From contig NZ_LAVK01000016.1 of the NCBI RefSeq assembly GCF_001083795.1, positions 1-44,772 of the forward strand: a stretch of 44,772 nucleotides of DNA, given 5' to 3'. Shown here in pieces: positions 3,100-14,704 of the stretch. The DNA comes from Streptomyces sp. SBT349. Its GTDB lineage: Bacteria; Actinomycetota; Actinomycetes; Streptomycetales; Streptomycetaceae. The translations under genes were made by a program, and so were the position numbers. How positions within the stretch are numbered: the first letter of the stretch is position 1; each line of letters begins with the position of its first letter. The notes under the pieces were generated by a model that was given only the letters and a program-made list of their open reading frames with translations, searched no databases and was not told the origin of the DNA.

Positions 3100-3693
3100 G
3101 TGAGGGCATTGGCCTCCGCTACCGAAAGGGCCTTGGGCAGAATGCTGGCCAAGCACCGGACCGACAACCGGCGACGGGGCAGGGCGGCCCTGCGGGCGCT
3201 GGTCCCCGGGGTGCTCGCCGCGGCGATCGCCGTGGGGGCGGTCGCCGCCGGGCTCCCCGGCTACGTCGGCGGGCTCCTGCTGGTGGTGGGCCTGGCCGGG
3301 CTGGTCCGAGGGACCGCCCTGGCCGTGGACCACCGGCGGCTGGGCGGCGAGGTGTTCATGATCCGGGAGCGCGGCGCGGTCCACCGCCGCCGGGGCACGG
3401 CCACGGCCCTCCCCTGGCGGGACATCGAGGCCGTCCGGATCAGCGGCCGGGGCCGCGCGCTGCGATGGCTGACGGGCCGCGACGTGATCGCCCGCGTCGC
3501 GCTCCGCCGCGGCGGCTCGCTGCCGGTCACCGGCTTCACCCACGACGCGCGGTCCCTGGCGGAGGAGCTCGCCGCCCGCGCGGGCGGAAGCCCGCACGCC
3601 GGGGCGGACGGCCCGCCGGACGGCAGGGCCGACGTGCCGTCCGGCGGGCGGCAACGGTCCCTCCGGCGGCGGGGCGAGCCCGCGACCGGCTGA
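3100..3693 (+). CDS. Small membrane protein, function unknown
   Basis: A 197-residue protein with two adjacent hydrophobic segments (about 35-52 and 54-70), then a soluble basic domain with alternating beta-like stretches (VFMIRERGAVHRRRG, LPWRDIEAVRI). That pattern resembles membrane-anchored PH-like domain proteins common in actinobacteria, but I do not recognise a named family. The C-terminal 40 residues are Gly/Asp/Arg-rich and probably disordered. Starts at GTG with GAGACGCGAG upstream; a promoter lies at 3018. It sits between glpQ and phoX, but nothing in its sequence ties it to phosphate metabolism. Confidence 0.6.
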   Translation: MRALASATERALGRMLAKHRTDNRRRGRAALRALVPGVLAAAIAVGAVAAGLPGYVGGLLLVVGLAGLVRGTALAVDHRRLGGEVFMIRERGAVHRRRGTATALPWRDIEAVRISGRGRALRWLTGRDVIARVALRRGGSLPVTGFTHDARSLAEELAARAGGSPHAGADGPPDGRADVPSGGRQRSLRRRGEPATG

Positions 3694-6754: not shown

Positions 6755-8623
6755 TCAACTCCATTTCGGCCGCGGGGCGAGGGTGCGCCGGCCGTCCTCG
6801 TCCCGCCGGGTGGTGCCCGCGGCGTCGAGCGCCTCCAGCAGCGGAAGCGCCACCCGGCGGCTGGTGGCCAGCGCGCGGGCGCACTCGCCCACCGTGAACG
6901 GCTCGGGCAGCGCGCGGAGCAGGGCGGCGGCACGCGCGGTCGCGCCCGCGCCGAGGTGGAGCGTCCCGATCCGCTCCAGCCGCCCGCGCCGCACCAGCAG
7001 GGCGAGGGCCTCGGCGGTCAGGCCGAGGTCGTCGAGCCGCCGCCGGGTCGGGGCGCGGAACGGGGACTCGCGCAGGTCGGCGAGCAGCCGGTCGAGGGCG
7101 GCGGCCACCGGCGCGGGCAGCCGTTCCGCGTCCGGCCCGCGGTAGACCCTGCCGTCCACCGCCACCAGCTCCCGCCCGTTCAGCTCCTTTCCCGTCAGGT
7201 CCTTTCCCGTGAGGTCCTTTCCCGTGAGCGCGGTCAGCGGAAGGGCGTCGGGCAGACCGAGGCGGCGCCGGGCCCGGGTGAACGGCAGGCCGGGGTCGGC
7301 GGGGTGGGCGGCGGCGTGCCCGTCGACCTCGTCGTGGAGCGCGGCGCGCAGCCGGGCCGCGTGCTCGGCGTCGATCAGGTAGGGGCCGGCGGTCAGCGCG
7401 CCGGGTACGGGGGAGCCGCCCGGCGGGAAGCCCATCGCGGTGAGGTCGGCGCGGTGGGCGAGCCCGGTGGCACGGAGCCGGGCGGCGGCGTCGGCGGGGT
7501 GGGCGATGGCGGCGAGGTGGCGGGCCCGCGCCGCCGCGGCGCCCCTGCCGTTCAGCGCGGGCGGGGCGACGTCCAGCACGGTGGCGCCCAGCAGCAGCCG
7601 CGAGCCGGGGTCGCGCACCAGCAGCCGGTCCCCGACGTGCAGGTCGAGGGGCGTCCGGAGGGCGAGGCGGGCGGCGTCCGGGCCGAGCGGGCGCAGCCGG
7701 GCGCTGGTGGCGGCCGTGCCGCAGTGGATCAGCGGTTCGGCGGGGAGACGCGGGTCCGGCCGGGGCGGGCCCTGGGACGGCGCGGGCCGGCGGTCGAGGC
7801 GGACGTCCACGGTGGAGGTCCGCCACCAGCGTCCTGGGGTGACCAGGGCGTGGCCCCTGCGTACCTCGGTGGCGGGGATGCGGCGGAGGTTCACCGCGAC
7901 ACGGGCGGGCCCGGTCACGCGGGGGACGCGTCGCCCGAGGGACTGGAGGTCGCGTACGGCGGCGGGGATGCCGGCCGGGGCCAGCTCCAGCACGTCCCCC
8001 ACGGCGAGGGTGCCCGCGGTGAGCGTGCCGGTGACGACGGTGCCGGCGCCGGCGACGGTGAACGCCCGGTCGAGCCAGAGGCGCACGGGGGCACCGGCGT
8101 CCGGCGGGGGGTGGGCTGCCGCCAGCGCGTCGAGCCGGTGCCTGAGGACGTCGAGCCCTTCCCCGGTGCGGGCGCTCACGGCCACGGCCGGGGCGTTCGC
8201 GAGGCCGGTGCCGGCGGTCCGCGCCCGCGCCTCGCCGAGGGCGGCGGCCAGCTCGGCGAGGTCGGCCCGGGTCACGACCAGCAGCCCGGTGCGGACCCCG
8301 AACGCGTCGAGGGCGGTGAGGTGTTCCTCGGTCTGGGCGCGCCACCCCTCGTCGGCGGAGACCACGAGCAGCACGGCCGGGGCGGTGGCGACGCCGGCGA
8401 AGGTGGTGGCCAGGTACCGGTGGTGGCCCGGCACGTCGACGAAGGCGAGGCTTCGCCCGCTGGGCGCGGTGGTCCACACGAAGCCGAGGTCCAGCGTCAG
8501 GCCGCGCCGCCGCTCCTCGGCGAGCCGGTCGGGGTCGGTTCCGGTGAGCGCCCGCACCAGCGTGGACTTGCCGTGGTCGACGTGTCCCGCGGTGGCGACC
8601 ACGTAGGTCTCGGTCCCTGTCAC
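6755..8623 (-). CDS. selB: Selenocysteine-specific elongation factor SelB
   Basis: GTPase that carries selenocysteinyl-tRNA(Sec) to UGA codons marked by a SECIS hairpin. The 622-residue protein has the translation-factor G domain (G1 GHVDHGKST at about 13-21, DVPGHHRY, and a TRAD box in place of NKXD), EF-Tu-like domains 2/3, and a C-terminal half with winged-helix repeats that bind the SECIS RNA (ARALATSRRVALPLLEALDAAG near the end). Starts at GTG with AGGAGAGG upstream, 38 nt after selA. A run of (LTGKD)-type repeats lies in the linker near residue 470. Together with selA, tRNA-Sec and selD it makes a full Sec incorporation set. Confidence 0.96.
   Translation of the reverse strand: MTGTETYVVATAGHVDHGKSTLVRALTGTDPDRLAEERRRGLTLDLGFVWTTAPSGRSLAFVDVPGHHRYLATTFAGVATAPAVLLVVSADEGWRAQTEEHLTALDAFGVRTGLLVVTRADLAELAAALGEARARTAGTGLANAPAVAVSARTGEGLDVLRHRLDALAAAHPPPDAGAPVRLWLDRAFTVAGAGTVVTGTLTAGTLAVGDVLELAPAGIPAAVRDLQSLGRRVPRVTGPARVAVNLRRIPATEVRRGHALVTPGRWWRTSTVDVRLDRRPAPSQGPPRPDPRLPAEPLIHCGTAATSARLRPLGPDAARLALRTPLDLHVGDRLLVRDPGSRLLLGATVLDVAPPALNGRGAAAARARHLAAIAHPADAAARLRATGLAHRADLTAMGFPPGGSPVPGALTAGPYLIDAEHAARLRAALHDEVDGHAAAHPADPGLPFTRARRRLGLPDALPLTALTGKDLTGKDLTGKELNGRELVAVDGRVYRGPDAERLPAPVAAALDRLLADLRESPFRAPTRRRLDDLGLTAEALALLVRRGRLERIGTLHLGAGATARAAALLRALPEPFTVGECARALATSRRVALPLLEALDAAGTTRRDEDGRRTLAPRPKWS
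7180..7229 (-). repeat. 15-bp tandem repeat inside selB
   Basis: Three near-identical units of the form AGGTCCTTTCCCGTG (+ strand) encode LTGKD-LTGKD-LTGKE, followed by a degenerate fourth (LNGRE). The insertion lies between winged-helix regions and keeps the frame, so it probably only lengthens a linker. Such a repeat can vary in copy number between strains. Confidence 0.8.
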
Positions 8624-8661: not shown

Positions 8662-9968
8662 TCAGGGCGCCGGCACCCCGGCGTGAGCGGCGAGGACGGC
8701 GGCGAGCAGGACGCCGTCGTCCTCCTCGGGCACGGTGCGCAGGTCGAGCAGCAGCCGGTCCTCGTGGAGCCGGCCGACGAGGGCGGGGCGTCCGGCGCGC
8801 AGCGGCGCGGCGAGGGCGGCGGGCAGCGCGACGCCGGCGCCGGGGAGCACCACGTCCGGCGCGCCACCCCCGCCGACCCGGGCCTCGGTGGGCAGCGGCA
8901 GGGCGTCGACGCCCCGGGCGCGCAACGCGTCGGCGAGGCGGGCGGCGCGGCCGGCGGGTCCGCGGAGCGGGCCGGGGGGGCGCGGTGGACGGGGGTGTCG
9001 GGTCCCCGGAGGGTGGCCTCCAGCGCCGCGAGGGTGAGCTTGTCGACGCGGAGGGCGCGGGCCAGCGGGTGGGTGGCGAGCCGGGTGACCAGGTCGCGGC
9101 GGCCGAGGAGGAGTCCCGCCTGGGGGCCGCCGAGCAGCTTGTCGGCGCTGGCGGTGACGAGGGCGGCGCCCTCGGCCAGCGAGGTCGCGGCGTCGGGCTC
9201 GCCGGGCAGCGCGGGGTGGGGCCGCAGCAGGCCGGAGCCGATGTCGTGGACCACGGGCACGTCCAGGGTGGCCAGGCGCGCGACGGAGACGGAGGAGACG
9301 AAGCCGGTGGTGGTGAAGTTGGACGGGTGGATCTTGAGGACGAAGCCGGTCTCGGGCCCGATCGCGGCCCGGTAGTCGGCCAGGTGGGTGCGGTTGGTGG
9401 TGCCGACCTCCCGGAGCCGGGCCCCGGTGCTCTGGAGCAGGTCGGGGATGCGGAACCCGTCGCCGATCTCCACCATCTCGCCGCGGCTGAGGACGATCTC
9501 GCGGCCCCGGGCGAGGGCGGTCGCGGCGAGGACGAGGGCGGCGGCGTTGTTGTTGGTGAGGTGGACCGCCTCGGCCCCGGGCACGGCCTCGGCGAGGGCG
9601 GACAGGGCGCCCGTGCCCCGGCGGGCCCGCCGCCCGGTGGCCAGGTCGAACTCGACGTCGGTGGGCCCCGAGGCGGCCAGGAGCGCCTCGCGGGCCGCCT
9701 CGGAGAGCGGCGCCCGGCCGAGGTTGGTGTGGATCACCACTCCGGTGGCGTTGAGGACGGGCAGCAGCGAGGCGGCGGTCGGGGGCAGGGCGGCCACCGT
9801 CGCGTCGGCGGCCCGCTCCGGCGCCAACGCGCCGCGCCGCACCCGCTCCTGGGCGTCGGCGACGGCCCGGCGGACCAGGTCGCGGCCCAACCGCTCGGCC
9901 GCGGCGACGAGTCGGGGGTCGGCCAGCAGCGCGTCGGTGCGCGGAACGCGTCGTCTGGCGTCCGTCAT
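8662..9968 (-). CDS. selA: L-seryl-tRNA(Sec) selenium transferase SelA, reading frame interrupted
   Basis: PLP enzyme that converts seryl-tRNA(Sec) to selenocysteinyl-tRNA(Sec) using selenophosphate. The N-terminal 330 residues are typical: LNATGVVIHTNLGRAPLS, HLTNNNAAA, GEMVEIGDGFRIP, and the PLP lysine in SADKLLGG near residue 278. After a run of seven C on the coding strand (+ strand G at 8974-8980) the family sequence continues in the -1 frame (GPLRGPAGRAARL to the stop at 8662). With one extra C the protein would be about 435 residues, normal for SelA. The cause may be a sequencing error, a recent mutation, phase variation or ribosomal slippage. ATG at 9968 lies 14 nt after tRNA-Sec. Confidence 0.88.
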
Positions 9969-9982
9969 CGGCTGGTCCCCCA

Positions 9983-10075
9983 CGGAGGCGTATGGGAATC
10001 GAACCCACCCGGCCGGGATCCCCGACCGCATCGGTGTTGAAGACCGTGAGGGCCACCAGGCACCCGCCCGCCTCC
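9983..10075 (-). tRNA. selC: Selenocysteine tRNA, anticodon UCA
   Basis: 93 nt, CCA not encoded. The acceptor is GGAGGCG paired with CGCCTCC, with discriminator G. The anticodon loop is CTTCAAC (anticodon TCA) closed by CGGT/ACCG. The long variable arm forms eight pairs (CGGTCGGG/CCCGGCCG, one G-U), and the T loop is TTCGATT. The large variable arm and UCA anticodon identify tRNA-Sec. The eighth acceptor pair expected of tRNA-Sec would be G-A here. Read toward selA, which starts 14 nt beyond its 3' end. Confidence 0.95.
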
Positions 10076-10140: not shown

Positions 10141-11148
10141 GTGACCGTGCCGCGCCTGACCCAGCTCGCCGGTGGTGGTGGCTGCGCCTGCAAGATCCCA
10201 CCCGGCGAACTCGACGACCTCGTGGCCGCGTTGGCCTCTCCGGTGCGTCCGCCGGTGGAACCGGCGGCCGAGCTGCTGGTGGGTCTCGACGGGGGAGGGG
10301 ACGACGCCGCCGTGGTGCGCCTGGACGCCGAGCGGGCGATCGTCACCACGGCCGACTTCTTCACGCCGGTGGTGGACGACCCCTACGACTGGGGGCGGAT
10401 CGCGGCGGCCAACGCGCTCTCCGACGTGTACGCGATGGGCGGGACGCCCTGGGCGGCGGTCAACCTGCTGGCGTGGCCGCGGGGGACGCTGCCGATGGAG
10501 ATGGCGGCGGAGGTGCTCCGCGGCGGGCGGGACGTGGCCCACGCCGCGGGCTGCCAGGTGTCGGGCGGGCACAGCGTCACCGATCCCGAGCCGAAGTACG
10601 GCATGTCGGTGGTCGGGATCGTCCACCCCGACCGGATGCTGCGGCTGGACGCGGCGGCGCCCGAGCGCGCGGTGACGCTCACCAAGCCGCTGGGCAGCGG
10701 GGTGCTGAACGCCCGGCACAAGGCGACCGGCACCGTCTTCCCCGAGGCGGTGGCGGTGATGGCGGCGCTCAACCGGGACGCGTCGCGGGAGGCGGTCGCG
10801 GCGGGCATCCGGGCGGGCACCGACGTGACGGGCTTCGGCCTGCTCGGGCACGCGTACAAGCTGGCCCGCGCCTCGGGGGTGACGGTGGCGATCGACGCGT
10901 CCGCGGTGCCGTTCCTCGCGGACGCCCGGCGGGCCGTGGCGGACGGGTTCGTCAGCGGCGGCACCCGCAGGAACCTCGCCTGGGTCGAGCCGCACGTGGA
11001 CTTCGGCGCCGCCCCCGAGGCGGAACGGCTGCTGCTGGCCGACGCGCAGACCTCGGGCGGGCTGCTGCTGGCCGGGGAGATCCCGGGGCACCCGGTGATA
11101 GGCGAGGTGCTGCCGCGGGGCGCGGCGCCGGTGGTGGTGCGCGTCTGA
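10141..11148 (+). CDS. selD: Selenide, water dikinase (selenophosphate synthetase)
   Basis: Makes selenophosphate, the selenium donor for SelA, from selenide and ATP. The 335-residue protein has the N-terminal active-site loop GGGGCACK, with Cys15 and Lys18 aligning to Cys17 and Lys20 of E. coli SelD; the catalytic residue is Cys, not Sec. It continues with the PurM-like core: GGGDDAAV, TTADFFTPVVDDPYDWGRIAA, NALSDVYAMGG, SGGHS, and a late TDVTGFGLLGH. Divergent from tRNA-Sec, with probable leaderless expression. Length is normal and no defects were seen, so selenophosphate supply looks intact even though selA is interrupted. Confidence 0.95.
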   Translation: MTVPRLTQLAGGGGCACKIPPGELDDLVAALASPVRPPVEPAAELLVGLDGGGDDAAVVRLDAERAIVTTADFFTPVVDDPYDWGRIAAANALSDVYAMGGTPWAAVNLLAWPRGTLPMEMAAEVLRGGRDVAHAAGCQVSGGHSVTDPEPKYGMSVVGIVHPDRMLRLDAAAPERAVTLTKPLGSGVLNARHKATGTVFPEAVAVMAALNRDASREAVAAGIRAGTDVTGFGLLGHAYKLARASGVTVAIDASAVPFLADARRAVADGFVSGGTRRNLAWVEPHVDFGAAPEAERLLLADAQTSGGLLLAGEIPGHPVIGEVLPRGAAPVVVRV

Positions 11149-11238: not shown

Positions 11239-11943
11239 GTGGCGCCATCCGCAGTCGTCGAGCACCGCGCGCTGGACGGCGTCGCGTACCACCTCGGCGG
11301 CGCCCTCGACCTGACGCGGTCGGCCACCTCGGTCGTCGAGATCGTCGCCGACGGCCGCCTCCACGAGTTCACCTCCGGCCCCCTCGGCCTCGCCGACGCG
11401 GTCGCCGCCTCGCTCGGGATCACCGGCTTCGACACCGAACTCGCCTTCCAGGGCGGCACGCTGAAGACCGCCACCACCAGCGAGTACGACCAGCGGGCCC
11501 AGCAGGTGGAGAATCCGACCCTGGTGGTCTGGCAGGGGCGGCGGTTCAGCCTGATCACGCGGCTCTACCGCGCCGCGCTCACCGACGTGCTGCTGCTGCT
11601 GCGCACCCTGGGCCTCGCCGAGCACCAGGACGGCCTCACCCTGACGCCCGACAACGCCGCGGGCACCCGGTGGGCGCGGCCCGCCACCGTGGTCAAGGAG
11701 GTGCCGGGGCTCGGCCTGGTCGAGATGTCCCGGCGGACCCGGGAGCACGCGGCCCAACTGCCGCCCTGGCAGGGTGCCTCGGTCGCCGCCGGAGAACTGT
11801 TCCGCGACAGCCTCTCCGACGGCCGCCCGTTCTTCGTGGTCTCCGGCGCCGAGGTGTGGGCCACCATCGTGCCGCTGGCCGACACCGACGTCGACCGGGT
11901 GCCCGGCCTCATCGACGGGCTCGACCTGCGGACCGCGGGGTGA
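11239..11943 (+). CDS. Protein of unknown family, first gene of the Mau-like operon
   Basis: A 234-residue, apparently soluble cytoplasmic protein with no signal peptide, no membrane segment and no cysteine. The N-terminal half looks alpha/beta (VVEIVADGRLHEFTSGPLGLADAVAASLGI). There are two conserved-looking Trp/aromatic stretches (TLVVWQGRRFSLITRLYR and SGAEVWATIVPLADTDVDRVPGLIDGL). I do not recognise the family. GTG at 11239 follows GGGAGGAACGCC. The next gene begins 7 nt after its stop, so it belongs to the operon; being cytosolic and Cys-free, it is more likely accessory or regulatory than part of a thiol relay. Confidence 0.7.
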   Translation: MAPSAVVEHRALDGVAYHLGGALDLTRSATSVVEIVADGRLHEFTSGPLGLADAVAASLGITGFDTELAFQGGTLKTATTSEYDQRAQQVENPTLVVWQGRRFSLITRLYRAALTDVLLLLRTLGLAEHQDGLTLTPDNAAGTRWARPATVVKEVPGLGLVEMSRRTREHAAQLPPWQGASVAAGELFRDSLSDGRPFFVVSGAEVWATIVPLADTDVDRVPGLIDGLDLRTAG

Positions 11944-11950
11944 GGCGCGG

Positions 11951-12514
11951 GTGACGACCCTCCTCGGCGCCGTCACCACCGGCGTGGTGCTGCTCGTCCT
12001 CCTCGCCGGCTGCGCCGCGCACCTGTCCCGGCCCGCGGCGCTCCCCGCCGCGCTCGCCGCCCACCGGGTGCTGCCGGCCCGCGCCGTGCCGCTCGCCGCC
12101 GGCGCCGTCACCCTGGCCGAGGGCCTGCTCGGCGCCGCCGGAACGGCGGCCCTGCTCGGCCGTCACCGCCTCGGCCTCACCGTCGTCCTGGCCGCCGCCG
12201 CCGCCCTGTTCACCTGCTACGCGCTCTACACGCGCCACACCCTCGCCACCGGGCGCGGCGGCCCCTGCGGCTGTTCGCGCGCCGAGGTGCCGCTGAGTGG
12301 CTGGGTCGTCGGCCGGGCCTGGGCGTTCGCCCTGCTGGCGCTCGGCGGTGCCCTGGTGGCGACCGGGCCGGGGACACCGCCGGAGGGCGCCGCCGAGGCG
12401 ACCACCGCGGCGCTCGCCGCGCTGACCTTCGCCGCCCTGCTGTGGGTGCTGCCGACGGCCATGGCACAGCAGGCCGGACCCGTGAAAGGAGGCCACCAGC
12501 CGTGGACTTCGTGA
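11951..12514 (+). CDS. MauE-like membrane protein
   Basis: A 187-residue protein with about five hydrophobic segments, matching the MauE/DoxX-like four-helix layout. A short loop carries GGPCGCSRAEVPLSGW, the CGC motif of MauE proteins. In methylamine dehydrogenase clusters MauE works with MauD to form the many disulfides of the small subunit. GTG at 11951; the longer frame from 11774 overlaps the previous gene and is not used. The 3' end overlaps the MauD-like gene by 13 nt, indicating translational coupling. Confidence 0.75.
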   Translation: MTTLLGAVTTGVVLLVLLAGCAAHLSRPAALPAALAAHRVLPARAVPLAAGAVTLAEGLLGAAGTAALLGRHRLGLTVVLAAAAALFTCYALYTRHTLATGRGGPCGCSRAEVPLSGWVVGRAWAFALLALGGALVATGPGTPPEGAAEATTAALAALTFAALLWVLPTAMAQQAGPVKGGHQPWTS

Positions 12515-13017
12515 CCAGTGCCCTGCTCGTCTCCTGGGTCGCCATCGCCCTGCTCGCCCTGGTGGTGTCCGGCCTGGTGCGGCAGGTCCACCAGCTCTCC
12601 CGGGGCGGGGTGGCGCGCTCTCCCCGCCACCTCGGCGTCACCCCCGGAAGCCCGGCCCCGCACGCCGGGGACCTGCTCGCGGAGGGGCGCGACACGCTGC
12701 TGCTCTTCCTCAGCGCCGAGTGCCGCACCTGCGCCGACGTGCTGGCCGAGGCCGACCGGGCCGGCGCGCACCGGTCGGCGGACGGCCCCCAGGTGCGGGC
12801 GGTCTACGCCGGCGCCGCCCCCACCCCCACTGCGGCCACGGTGCCGGTCACCGACCACCGGCCCGACCTCTTCACCGCCTACGACGCGATCGCCACCCCG
12901 TTCGCCGTCGTCGTCGGCGCGACGGGCCGCGTGGTGCGCTCCGAACCGCTCGGCTCCCCGGCCGCCCTGCGTGAGCTGCTCGCCGCCCCGTATCCCAGCC
13001 AGCCGAGGAGCGCGTGA
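12502..13017 (+). CDS. MauD-like membrane-anchored thioredoxin-fold protein
   Basis: 171 residues. One N-terminal transmembrane helix (about 5-25) is followed by an exported thioredoxin-like domain with a CxxC site (AECRTCADVL) and a later cis-proline-like TPFAVVV stretch. MauD proteins have this layout and act in disulfide formation or isomerisation of the methylamine dehydrogenase light chain. GTG at 12502 follows AAAGGAGG at ideal spacing, whereas the upstream start at 12442 lies deep in the MauE-like gene. Its TGA overlaps the next ATG. Context implies it matures the 12-Cys protein encoded next. Confidence 0.8.
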   Translation: MDFVTSALLVSWVAIALLALVVSGLVRQVHQLSRGGVARSPRHLGVTPGSPAPHAGDLLAEGRDTLLLFLSAECRTCADVLAEADRAGAHRSADGPQVRAVYAGAAPTPTAATVPVTDHRPDLFTAYDAIATPFAVVVGATGRVVRSEPLGSPAALRELLAAPYPSQPRSA

Positions 13018-13949
13018 TGACCAGCCTCGACGAGGTCCCCCTGCTGCGCCGCGCCGACGGCGCCCACCGACCCGCCCACCGACCCGCCCGGCGGCCGAGG
13101 GCGGAGGGCCTGCCACGGTTCGTTCCCAGCCGCCGCACCGTCCTCCAGTCCGCGACGGCCGTCGGCTTCACCGCGCTCGGGGTCTTCGCGGCGGCCCGCG
13201 AGGCGTACGCGGACGGATACGACATCTGGACCGGGGAGTGCCCCTCCTACGCCTCCGACCACGACTGCTCGCCCGGCTGCGGGCCGAGCACGGTGTACGC
13301 CGCCGCCTGCGAGACGAGCGGCGCGAACGCGGGCTTCCACCGCAACGACGGCGTCACCTGGACGCTGCGGCCCAACCAGTGCTATTCGGGCTCCTACGAC
13401 GGCTGGCTGTGGCGCTTCAGCGGCGCGTGCGGCGCCTGCGGCTGCGGCATCGAACGACGCTGCCACGACGGGTACCTCAACTCCGGCTCCGGCTGGGTGC
13501 GTTCGATCTGCCGCTGGACCACCGACTGCGGCTGTGAGGGCGCCGTCACCTGGCCCACCGTGCGGTCCGGCGCCCGGGGGCCCGACGTGTACGCGGTGCA
13601 GCACCTGGTCTCCCACCACGGGTTCGCCACGGACCCGGACGGGGTGTTCGGGCCGGCCACCGAGGCGGCCGTCACGGCGTTCCAGGAGTCCGCCGGGCTC
13701 GGCGCGACCGGCGTCGCCGACCCGGCGACCTGGCCCCGGCTGGTCGTCACGGTCCGCCAGGGCGACGACGGCGAGGCGGTGAGCGCGGCGCAGCGGCAGC
13801 TCGTCAAGCACGGCCACCAGCTCACCGTCGACGGCGCCTTCGGCGCGCTCACCGCCGAGGCCACGCGGACCTTCCAGCGGGCCGGCGGGCTCACCGCGGA
13901 CGCGGTCGTCGGCCAGCAGACCTGGCGCGCGCTGACCGGCACGGCGTAG
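13017..13949 (+). CDS. Tat-exported 12-cysteine protein with two peptidoglycan-binding repeats
   Basis: 310 residues: a twin-arginine signal (SRRTVLQ, then a hydrophobic stretch ending AYA), a cysteine-rich module of about 105 residues, then two PG_binding_1 repeats (PDGVFGPATEAAVTAFQ and VDGAFGALTAEATRTFQ). The Cys module holds exactly 12 Cys, including GACGACGCG and DCGC clusters, plus several Trp (GWLWRF, GWVR, CRWTTDC). Methylamine dehydrogenase light chains (MauA) also have 12 Cys in six disulfides and a Trp-derived TTQ cofactor, so this may be a distant MauA relative tethered to the cell wall; that homology is inferred from cysteine count and neighbours, not alignment. ATG at 13017 overlaps the MauD-like stop; GTG at 13014 is an alternative. 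Confidence 0.75.
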   Translation: MTSLDEVPLLRRADGAHRPAHRPARRPRAEGLPRFVPSRRTVLQSATAVGFTALGVFAAAREAYADGYDIWTGECPSYASDHDCSPGCGPSTVYAAACETSGANAGFHRNDGVTWTLRPNQCYSGSYDGWLWRFSGACGACGCGIERRCHDGYLNSGSGWVRSICRWTTDCGCEGAVTWPTVRSGARGPDVYAVQHLVSHHGFATDPDGVFGPATEAAVTAFQESAGLGATGVADPATWPRLVVTVRQGDDGEAVSAAQRQLVKHGHQLTVDGAFGALTAEATRTFQRAGGLTADAVVGQQTWRALTGTA

Positions 13950-14704
13950 TGGGCGGCGTCGAGGCGGGGGCCGCCCGCCCGGCGTGGCGCGGCCGGCTGA
14001 CGGACCCGGCGGTGCCGGTGCTCGCGCTGGTCTGCGGGGCCGTCGCCGCCTCCTGGTACGCCTCCGTGCTGACCTGGGCGGTCATCGGCGGACTCGCCGG
14101 CTACTCGCTCTCCGGCTCCGTTTGAACGCGCAACAGCGCGCACGCGCTTGCCTCGCCAGGTTGGCGGGCGGTTCATCGGCAGACCACCGTGCTCGGGATC
14201 TTCACGGCGGGACTGCTGCTCGGCGGCGCCCTGTCGGCCTCGGCCCTGTGGCTCGCCTCGGGCCTCGTCGCGCCGCTGCCCGGGAGCGGGCGGGCGTTCG
14301 CCGCCGTCGCGGTCGCGCTGACGGGCGTGGCGCGGGACGCGGGCCTGGTCAGGCTGCGGCTGCCGCAGAACGCGCGTCAGGTGCCGCAGGACGTCCTGCA
14401 ACGTGATCTGGTGCGCGGCGCCCTCCAGTTCGGCTTCGAGCTGGGCACCGGGGTGCGGACCTACGTGTCGGCGAGCCTCCCGTACGTCGTCGCCGTGGGC
14501 GTGCTGCTCGCCAACGACGCGGGCGCGGCACTGCTGGCCGGCGTCGGCTTCGCGCTGGGCCGGGCGGCCACCCCCGCGCTGCGGCTCGCCTCCGGCGCGG
14601 GCGAGGAGTGGGACGACCGGCTGCTCGACCGGCTGCCGCTGCTCGCGATCGGGGGCGGAACGGTGGTGGCCGGGGCCCTGACGGCGCTCGCGCTGCACGG
14701 ATAG
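13949..14704 (+). CDS. Polytopic membrane protein with in-frame TGA: candidate selenoprotein
   Basis: One open frame of 251 residues interrupted only by TGA at 14123-14125 (residue 59). GTG at 13949 overlaps the preceding TAG by one base. Stopping at TGA would give a 58-residue one- or two-helix protein; a restart at GTG 14189 would lack any Shine-Dalgarno. Read through as Sec, the protein has about six membrane segments, one Cys (29, in the first hydrophobic segment) and Sec59 following SLSGSV, enough for one selenenylsulfide pair, as in two-Cys DsbD/CcdA relays. A hairpin at 14152-14168 has SECIS features. MauF is the positional analogue, but I cannot confirm homology. Alternatives are a nonsense mutation or two genes. 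Confidence 0.6.
14152..14168 (+). promoter_or_regulatory. Candidate SECIS hairpin
   Basis: CTCGCC, loop AGGTT, GGCGGG: six pairs (one G-U) and a 5-nt loop starting 32 nt after the in-frame TGA. Bacterial SECIS loops lie about 16-37 nt after UGA and need a G in the first two loop bases; the E. coli fdhF loop likewise begins AGGU. Non-G/C third positions (CTT, CCA, GGT, GTT, CAT) cluster in and around this hairpin, unlike flanking codons. Confidence 0.55.

Follow-up and report, generated by a model that had tools for sequence, protein, structure and literature searches.

The window, a stretch of 44,772 nucleotides that comprises positions 1 to 44,772 of contig NZ_LAVK01000016.1 of Streptomyces sp. 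SBT349, holds the same neighbouring genes as the usual selA-selB-selD-tRNA-Sec cluster (Table 1). For Streptomyces incarnatus, the available text of PMC4498112 describes a selABCD cluster together with a Sec formate dehydrogenase, and the selA loci of named Streptomyces are ~80–87% identical in DNA to those of our genus set. The upstream 327 residues of SelA exceed both curated cut-offs, scoring 302.9 bits against PF03841 (cut-off 22.8) and 368.2 bits against TIGR00474 (cut-off 267.9). A single uninterrupted frame from the start at 9968 on the minus strand to the C-terminal end is not found: the frame shifts at about 8957/8956, and the final part is read in the -1 frame to a stop at 8664–8662. 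Compared with an ordinary SelA (L-seryl-tRNA(Sec) selenium transferase), the gene is therefore one base short, with its last 97 codons out of frame. The whole genome (8.06 Mb in 691 contigs) yields one PF03841 match, and a second selA copy was rejected on that account. Identity to the five nearest relatives is 79–83% before the break and 66–68% after it; over the latter part, these relatives are 69–93% identical among themselves.

Table 1. Positions of the features discussed, in window coordinates except for the formate dehydrogenase, which is given by genome and contig.
Feature	Position	Strand	Basis or remark
selB	6755..8623	-	Open, SelB domains present; TIGR00475 243.1 bits (cut-off 242.25)
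selA, downstream part	8662..8955	-	97 codons in the -1 frame, followed by the stop; reading frame and relatives
Best-supported site of the one-base loss	8956..8957	-	Conserved Leu codon one base short; profile, codon model, DNA register, relatives
Heptamer C_CCC_CCG	8973..8979	-	In the 0-frame phase needed for -1 slippage; sequence
Seven-C run, coding strand (seven G on +)	8974..8980	-	0-frame codons GCC CCC CCG; read from sequence
selA, upstream part	8957..9968	-	337 codons, intact; PF03841 and TIGR00474 over cut-off (searched as 8986-9968)
tRNA-Sec	9983..10075	-	Anticodon TCA; Rfam RF01852 70.2 bits (gathering 47)
selD	10141..11148	+	TIGR00476 365.4 bits (cut-off 125)
Selenoprotein candidate, membrane-like	13949..14704	+	In-frame TGA at 14123-14125 (residue 59); conservation across the TGA
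Cys-form formate dehydrogenase, L178	G000:C668:15390-16400		Noted together with L179-L182

The break was mapped with a SelA profile of 28 same-genus proteins, derived from 30 loci after leaving out the window's own locus (L022) and one that ends at a contig end (L026). A first-pass annotation of this DNA had described selA as otherwise normal, with a switch to the -1 frame that a single base would repair, and this much holds: the gene is otherwise open and conserved, and the profile score rises from 519.2 bits as is to 621.4 bits when the run of seven gains a C and to 630.5 bits with the best single base elsewhere. The same annotation had placed the frame change at the C run itself, and here the evidence disagrees, as protein profile, codon model and DNA register each put the break downstream, best at or near 8957/8956. 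When a one-base insertion was moved through the selA region and scored against the 28-protein profile, the peak of 627.7 bits fell at 8957/8956, against 620.1–622.8 bits inside the C run; a two-base deletion model was rejected for its lower peak (622.8 bits). A codon-periodicity model trained on the strain's own genome only, and thus without homologues, likewise placed the break at 8957, favouring this site over the run by just 1.6–2.5 nats. In DNA register, the nearest six relatives gave a best count of 732 matches with a gap at 8959 versus 709–715 in the run, and all 29 relatives gave 3408 with a gap at 8950 versus 3320–3349 in the run. To control the mapping, each of the 28 relatives was made to lose one base, once at the run-homologous place and once at the Leu codon, and was scanned with leave-one-out profiles; simulated breaks were recovered to within 6 nt in 28/28 cases at the former and 26/28 at the latter, and none at either place was mapped 15 nt or more away.

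The relatives are informative as to the original sequence. The shortened codon encodes Leu in all 29 genus relatives and in 72 of the 75 members of a wider set (loci L023–L103, 81 in all, of which six without the anchor motif were dropped). The spacing between the flanking motifs is 59 residues in 29/29 relatives, with the frame unbroken. Adding a C to the run would instead give Pro at the Leu column, found in 0/75, and Gly five columns earlier, found in 1/75 as against Ala in 58/75; this reading has a slight edge at two of the six columns at which the readings differ (6 against 5 and 5 against 0 of 75). The earlier proposal that an additional C repairs selA is thus sound as regards the recovered score and not supported as regards the likeliest original state.

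The seven C residues at 8974–8980 and their codons are as first annotated. An exact X XXY YYZ fit had also been claimed for them, and this stands in part: a heptamer of the right pattern is present, and the one in phase is C_CCC_CCG at 8979–8973, one base off the C run. The run is the sole mononucleotide run of at least seven within the window, and 796,063 bases of the strain's genome hold 32 C/G runs of at least seven, a rate at which such a run would fall within 24 nt of a given site with a chance of ~0.2%. Its closeness to the break is in our view a modest coincidence, though not one to dismiss. The flanked pattern was observed once in the window, with 10.95 occurrences expected from shuffles. 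None of the 29 relatives carries a run of seven C within 30 nt of the site, the longest C run there being six.

The first-pass annotation also pointed to a linked selenoprotein candidate, and the comparison with other genomes upholds it. A scan of TGA codons covered 723 contexts and was noisy, with many spurious matches in GC-rich frames; among the matches listed, the TGA at 14123 was chosen for high conservation on both sides of the codon in five genomes. The DNA just downstream of this TGA is nearly identical in five relatives and similar in more distant ones, and holds a hairpin-like stretch, GCC..AGGTT..GGC. The encoded protein has no match at E up to 0.01 among the Pfam and NCBIfam models. 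Across 392 genomes of the genus, the TGA form occurs in 15, and 14 of these have selA, which is itself found in 67 genomes (near full-length matches plus G169, whose gene is split by runs of N and was on that account rejected as a second broken selA); the co-occurrence has a Fisher p of 7e-11, with relatedness among the genomes ignored. G074, the only genome with the TGA protein that lacks selA, is 82% complete. Of nine other genomes with a match in a class-wide draw, seven carry the TGA, the remaining two matches being partial and without a stop. Among the literature matches listed, none reports selA recoding or the linked TGA protein.

What the Sec pathway may serve was considered in 20 chosen genomes of the genus with selA, including that of the strain itself. 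In 13 of these, a formate dehydrogenase gene contains one in-frame TGA. Four genomes, including the strain's own together with G295, G180 and G061, have only a formate dehydrogenase with Cys (TGC) in its place, one (G069) has both forms, and the three nearest by SelA (G208, G071 and G129) have no close formate dehydrogenase match, G208 having a weak one at 35%. All seven genomes of the 20 without a TGA-containing formate dehydrogenase carry the linked TGA protein. The nearest relatives thus keep the Sec pathway without the common type of Sec formate dehydrogenase, yet carry a linked, conserved, TGA-encoded, membrane-like protein, which may be the reason why the pathway has been retained. For this reason the linked selenoprotein candidate appears to us to matter more than the break in selA.

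Considering these data together, we propose, with a probability of about 0.78, that the only selA of this strain has undergone an ordinary loss of one base at or near 8957/8956, that the lesion is private to this assembly, and that the locus is not a recoding site. One base would have been lost some 17–24 bases downstream of the C run; read literally, the sequence would then specify ~337 correct SelA codons followed by ~750 codons in the wrong frame, and a selA out of frame in this manner would be predicted to yield no functional SelA. The lesion resembles the frame breaks that sequencing error or recent mutation leaves in otherwise intact genes of single genomes, in that one base is missing from a conserved gene and the change is private to one genome; it differs in striking a gene present in one copy, with a pathway and a linked selenoprotein candidate that both look functional. 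Among the observations that weigh against this proposal, a C run within 24 nt of the break is an unlikely coincidence if the two are unrelated, and the post-break SelA is slightly less similar to its relatives than these are to one another.

As to origin, tRNA-Sec, SelB, SelD and the linked TGA protein are well preserved, and the lesion is therefore either an assembly error or recent; the kind and mapped position of the break, its absence from the relatives examined and the intact neighbours are observed directly, and we infer both its recency and the division between error and mutation. A sequencing or assembly error is the somewhat favoured cause, with odds a little better than even, and a recent real inactivation is a possible but distinctly less probable one. 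The frame-break rate in the assembly was compared with that of the complete genome G208, from which nine and 13 candidates, respectively, remained after filtering, each verdict being a reading of the joins by eye. On this by-eye reading, non-mobile genes with frame breaks number ~4 for the strain's own assembly (796 kb) and ~5 for G208 (780 kb); there is no excess over G208, and hence no support from this quarter for assembly error. Those counted are selA, L139 (4771), L150 (18709) and L142 (6339; dropped by a later filter) in the strain, and L168, L174 (two candidates, one gene), L175, L242 (17845) and L245 in G208. Candidates set aside in the strain were two in L143, which look mobile, and those in L139 (at 7568), L148, L157 and L231, which look like neighbouring genes; in G208 they were four in L247, at least partly mobile, and those in L238, L242 (3026) and L251, which look like neighbours. 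Separately, one of the strain's own frame breaks coincides with the sole N base in the stretches sampled.

Homopolymers are hot spots for insertions and deletions, and a loss inside the C run itself, through homopolymer sequencing error or mutation of an original eight Cs, is the alternative with most in its favour, given also that the run lies close to the mapped break and that most of the profile score returns once a C is added there. We nonetheless regard it as unlikely, as it falls 9.1 bits below the best single base elsewhere, would require the Pro and Gly residues that are absent or nearly so among the relatives, and would have to have been mapped at a distance at which no break simulated at that place was ever found.

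That selA is instead an established pseudogene in a strain that has abandoned selenocysteine we consider very improbable. A strain whose own formate dehydrogenase is of the Cys form, when 13 of the 20 genomes have the TGA form, could have less need of Sec; however, the genomes that resemble it in having the Cys form only (G295, G180 and G061), and likewise those with no such formate dehydrogenase (G208, G071 and G129), still read selA through the site. The first-pass annotation named further mutations downstream as the mark of a dead gene; here the 97 downstream codons are open and conserved and the lesion is single. The selB, selD and tRNA-Sec genes are intact, and the TGA protein has been kept together with the DNA downstream of its TGA. 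The residual similarity of the post-break SelA and the intact pathway make a long-dead selA unlikely, and an old pseudogene was rejected.

There is an even slimmer chance that a real deletion is partly rescued by weak -1 slippage at C_CCC_CCG, just upstream. The available portion of PMC4066793 lists C_CC.C_CC.G among the motifs that shift at >0.10% without stimulators in E. coli, and weak accidental slippage at the in-phase heptamer is accordingly possible. Since both frames are open between the heptamer and the break, a ribosome that slips would produce SelA at full length with few changed residues, and such a rescue, if true, would keep low-level selenocysteine synthesis alive.

Least credible of all is programmed -1 ribosomal frameshifting at the heptamer as a regulator of SelA output, the on/off switch envisaged in the first-pass annotation. 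The in-phase C_CCC_CCG matches bacterial programmed -1 sites (X_XXY_YYZ) in pattern and phase, and the available portion of PMC4066793 shows that -1 shifting can occur at motifs of this kind in E. coli, C_CCC_CCC being among the most efficient there when combined with a pseudoknot stimulator. Here, the heptamer lies 17–24 nt upstream of the frame change as mapped by profile scan and codon model; the run is conserved in none of the relatives, all of which (29/29) read through in one frame with normal spacing, so that the comparison with relatives, suggested in that annotation as a check, speaks against a conserved recoding site, which was rejected. After the mapped break, the 0 frame stays free of stops over 2,246 nt, hence no short alternative product is predicted. 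In the 60 nt downstream, no stimulatory structure was seen by pseudoknot-free fold energy against shuffles: at -27.1 kcal/mol the fold is less stable than codon shuffles (mean -32.7), and a fold as stable occurs in 35% of 268 ordinary coding windows. With the break past the run, no conservation, no nearby stop and no structure, programmed slippage is not supported. Such a switch in selA would have meant a new control of an expanded genetic code, and the evidence does not support one; before re-sequencing, the strain should be annotated neither as Sec-deficient nor as the user of a recoding switch.

Of the products encoded between selD and the selenoprotein candidate (11239–13949, plus strand), two have no match, one of them small and bearing a CxxC-like ECRTC motif; the others are a MauE-family protein (PF07291) and a Cys-rich protein that carries peptidoglycan-binding domains. 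The candidate itself lies downstream of the MauE-like gene. A word search of the available portions of PMC12013277, PMC13188914, PMC5029168 and PMC9312934 returned no mention of MauE or methylamine. Several relatives retain the linkage of these genes to the TGA protein.
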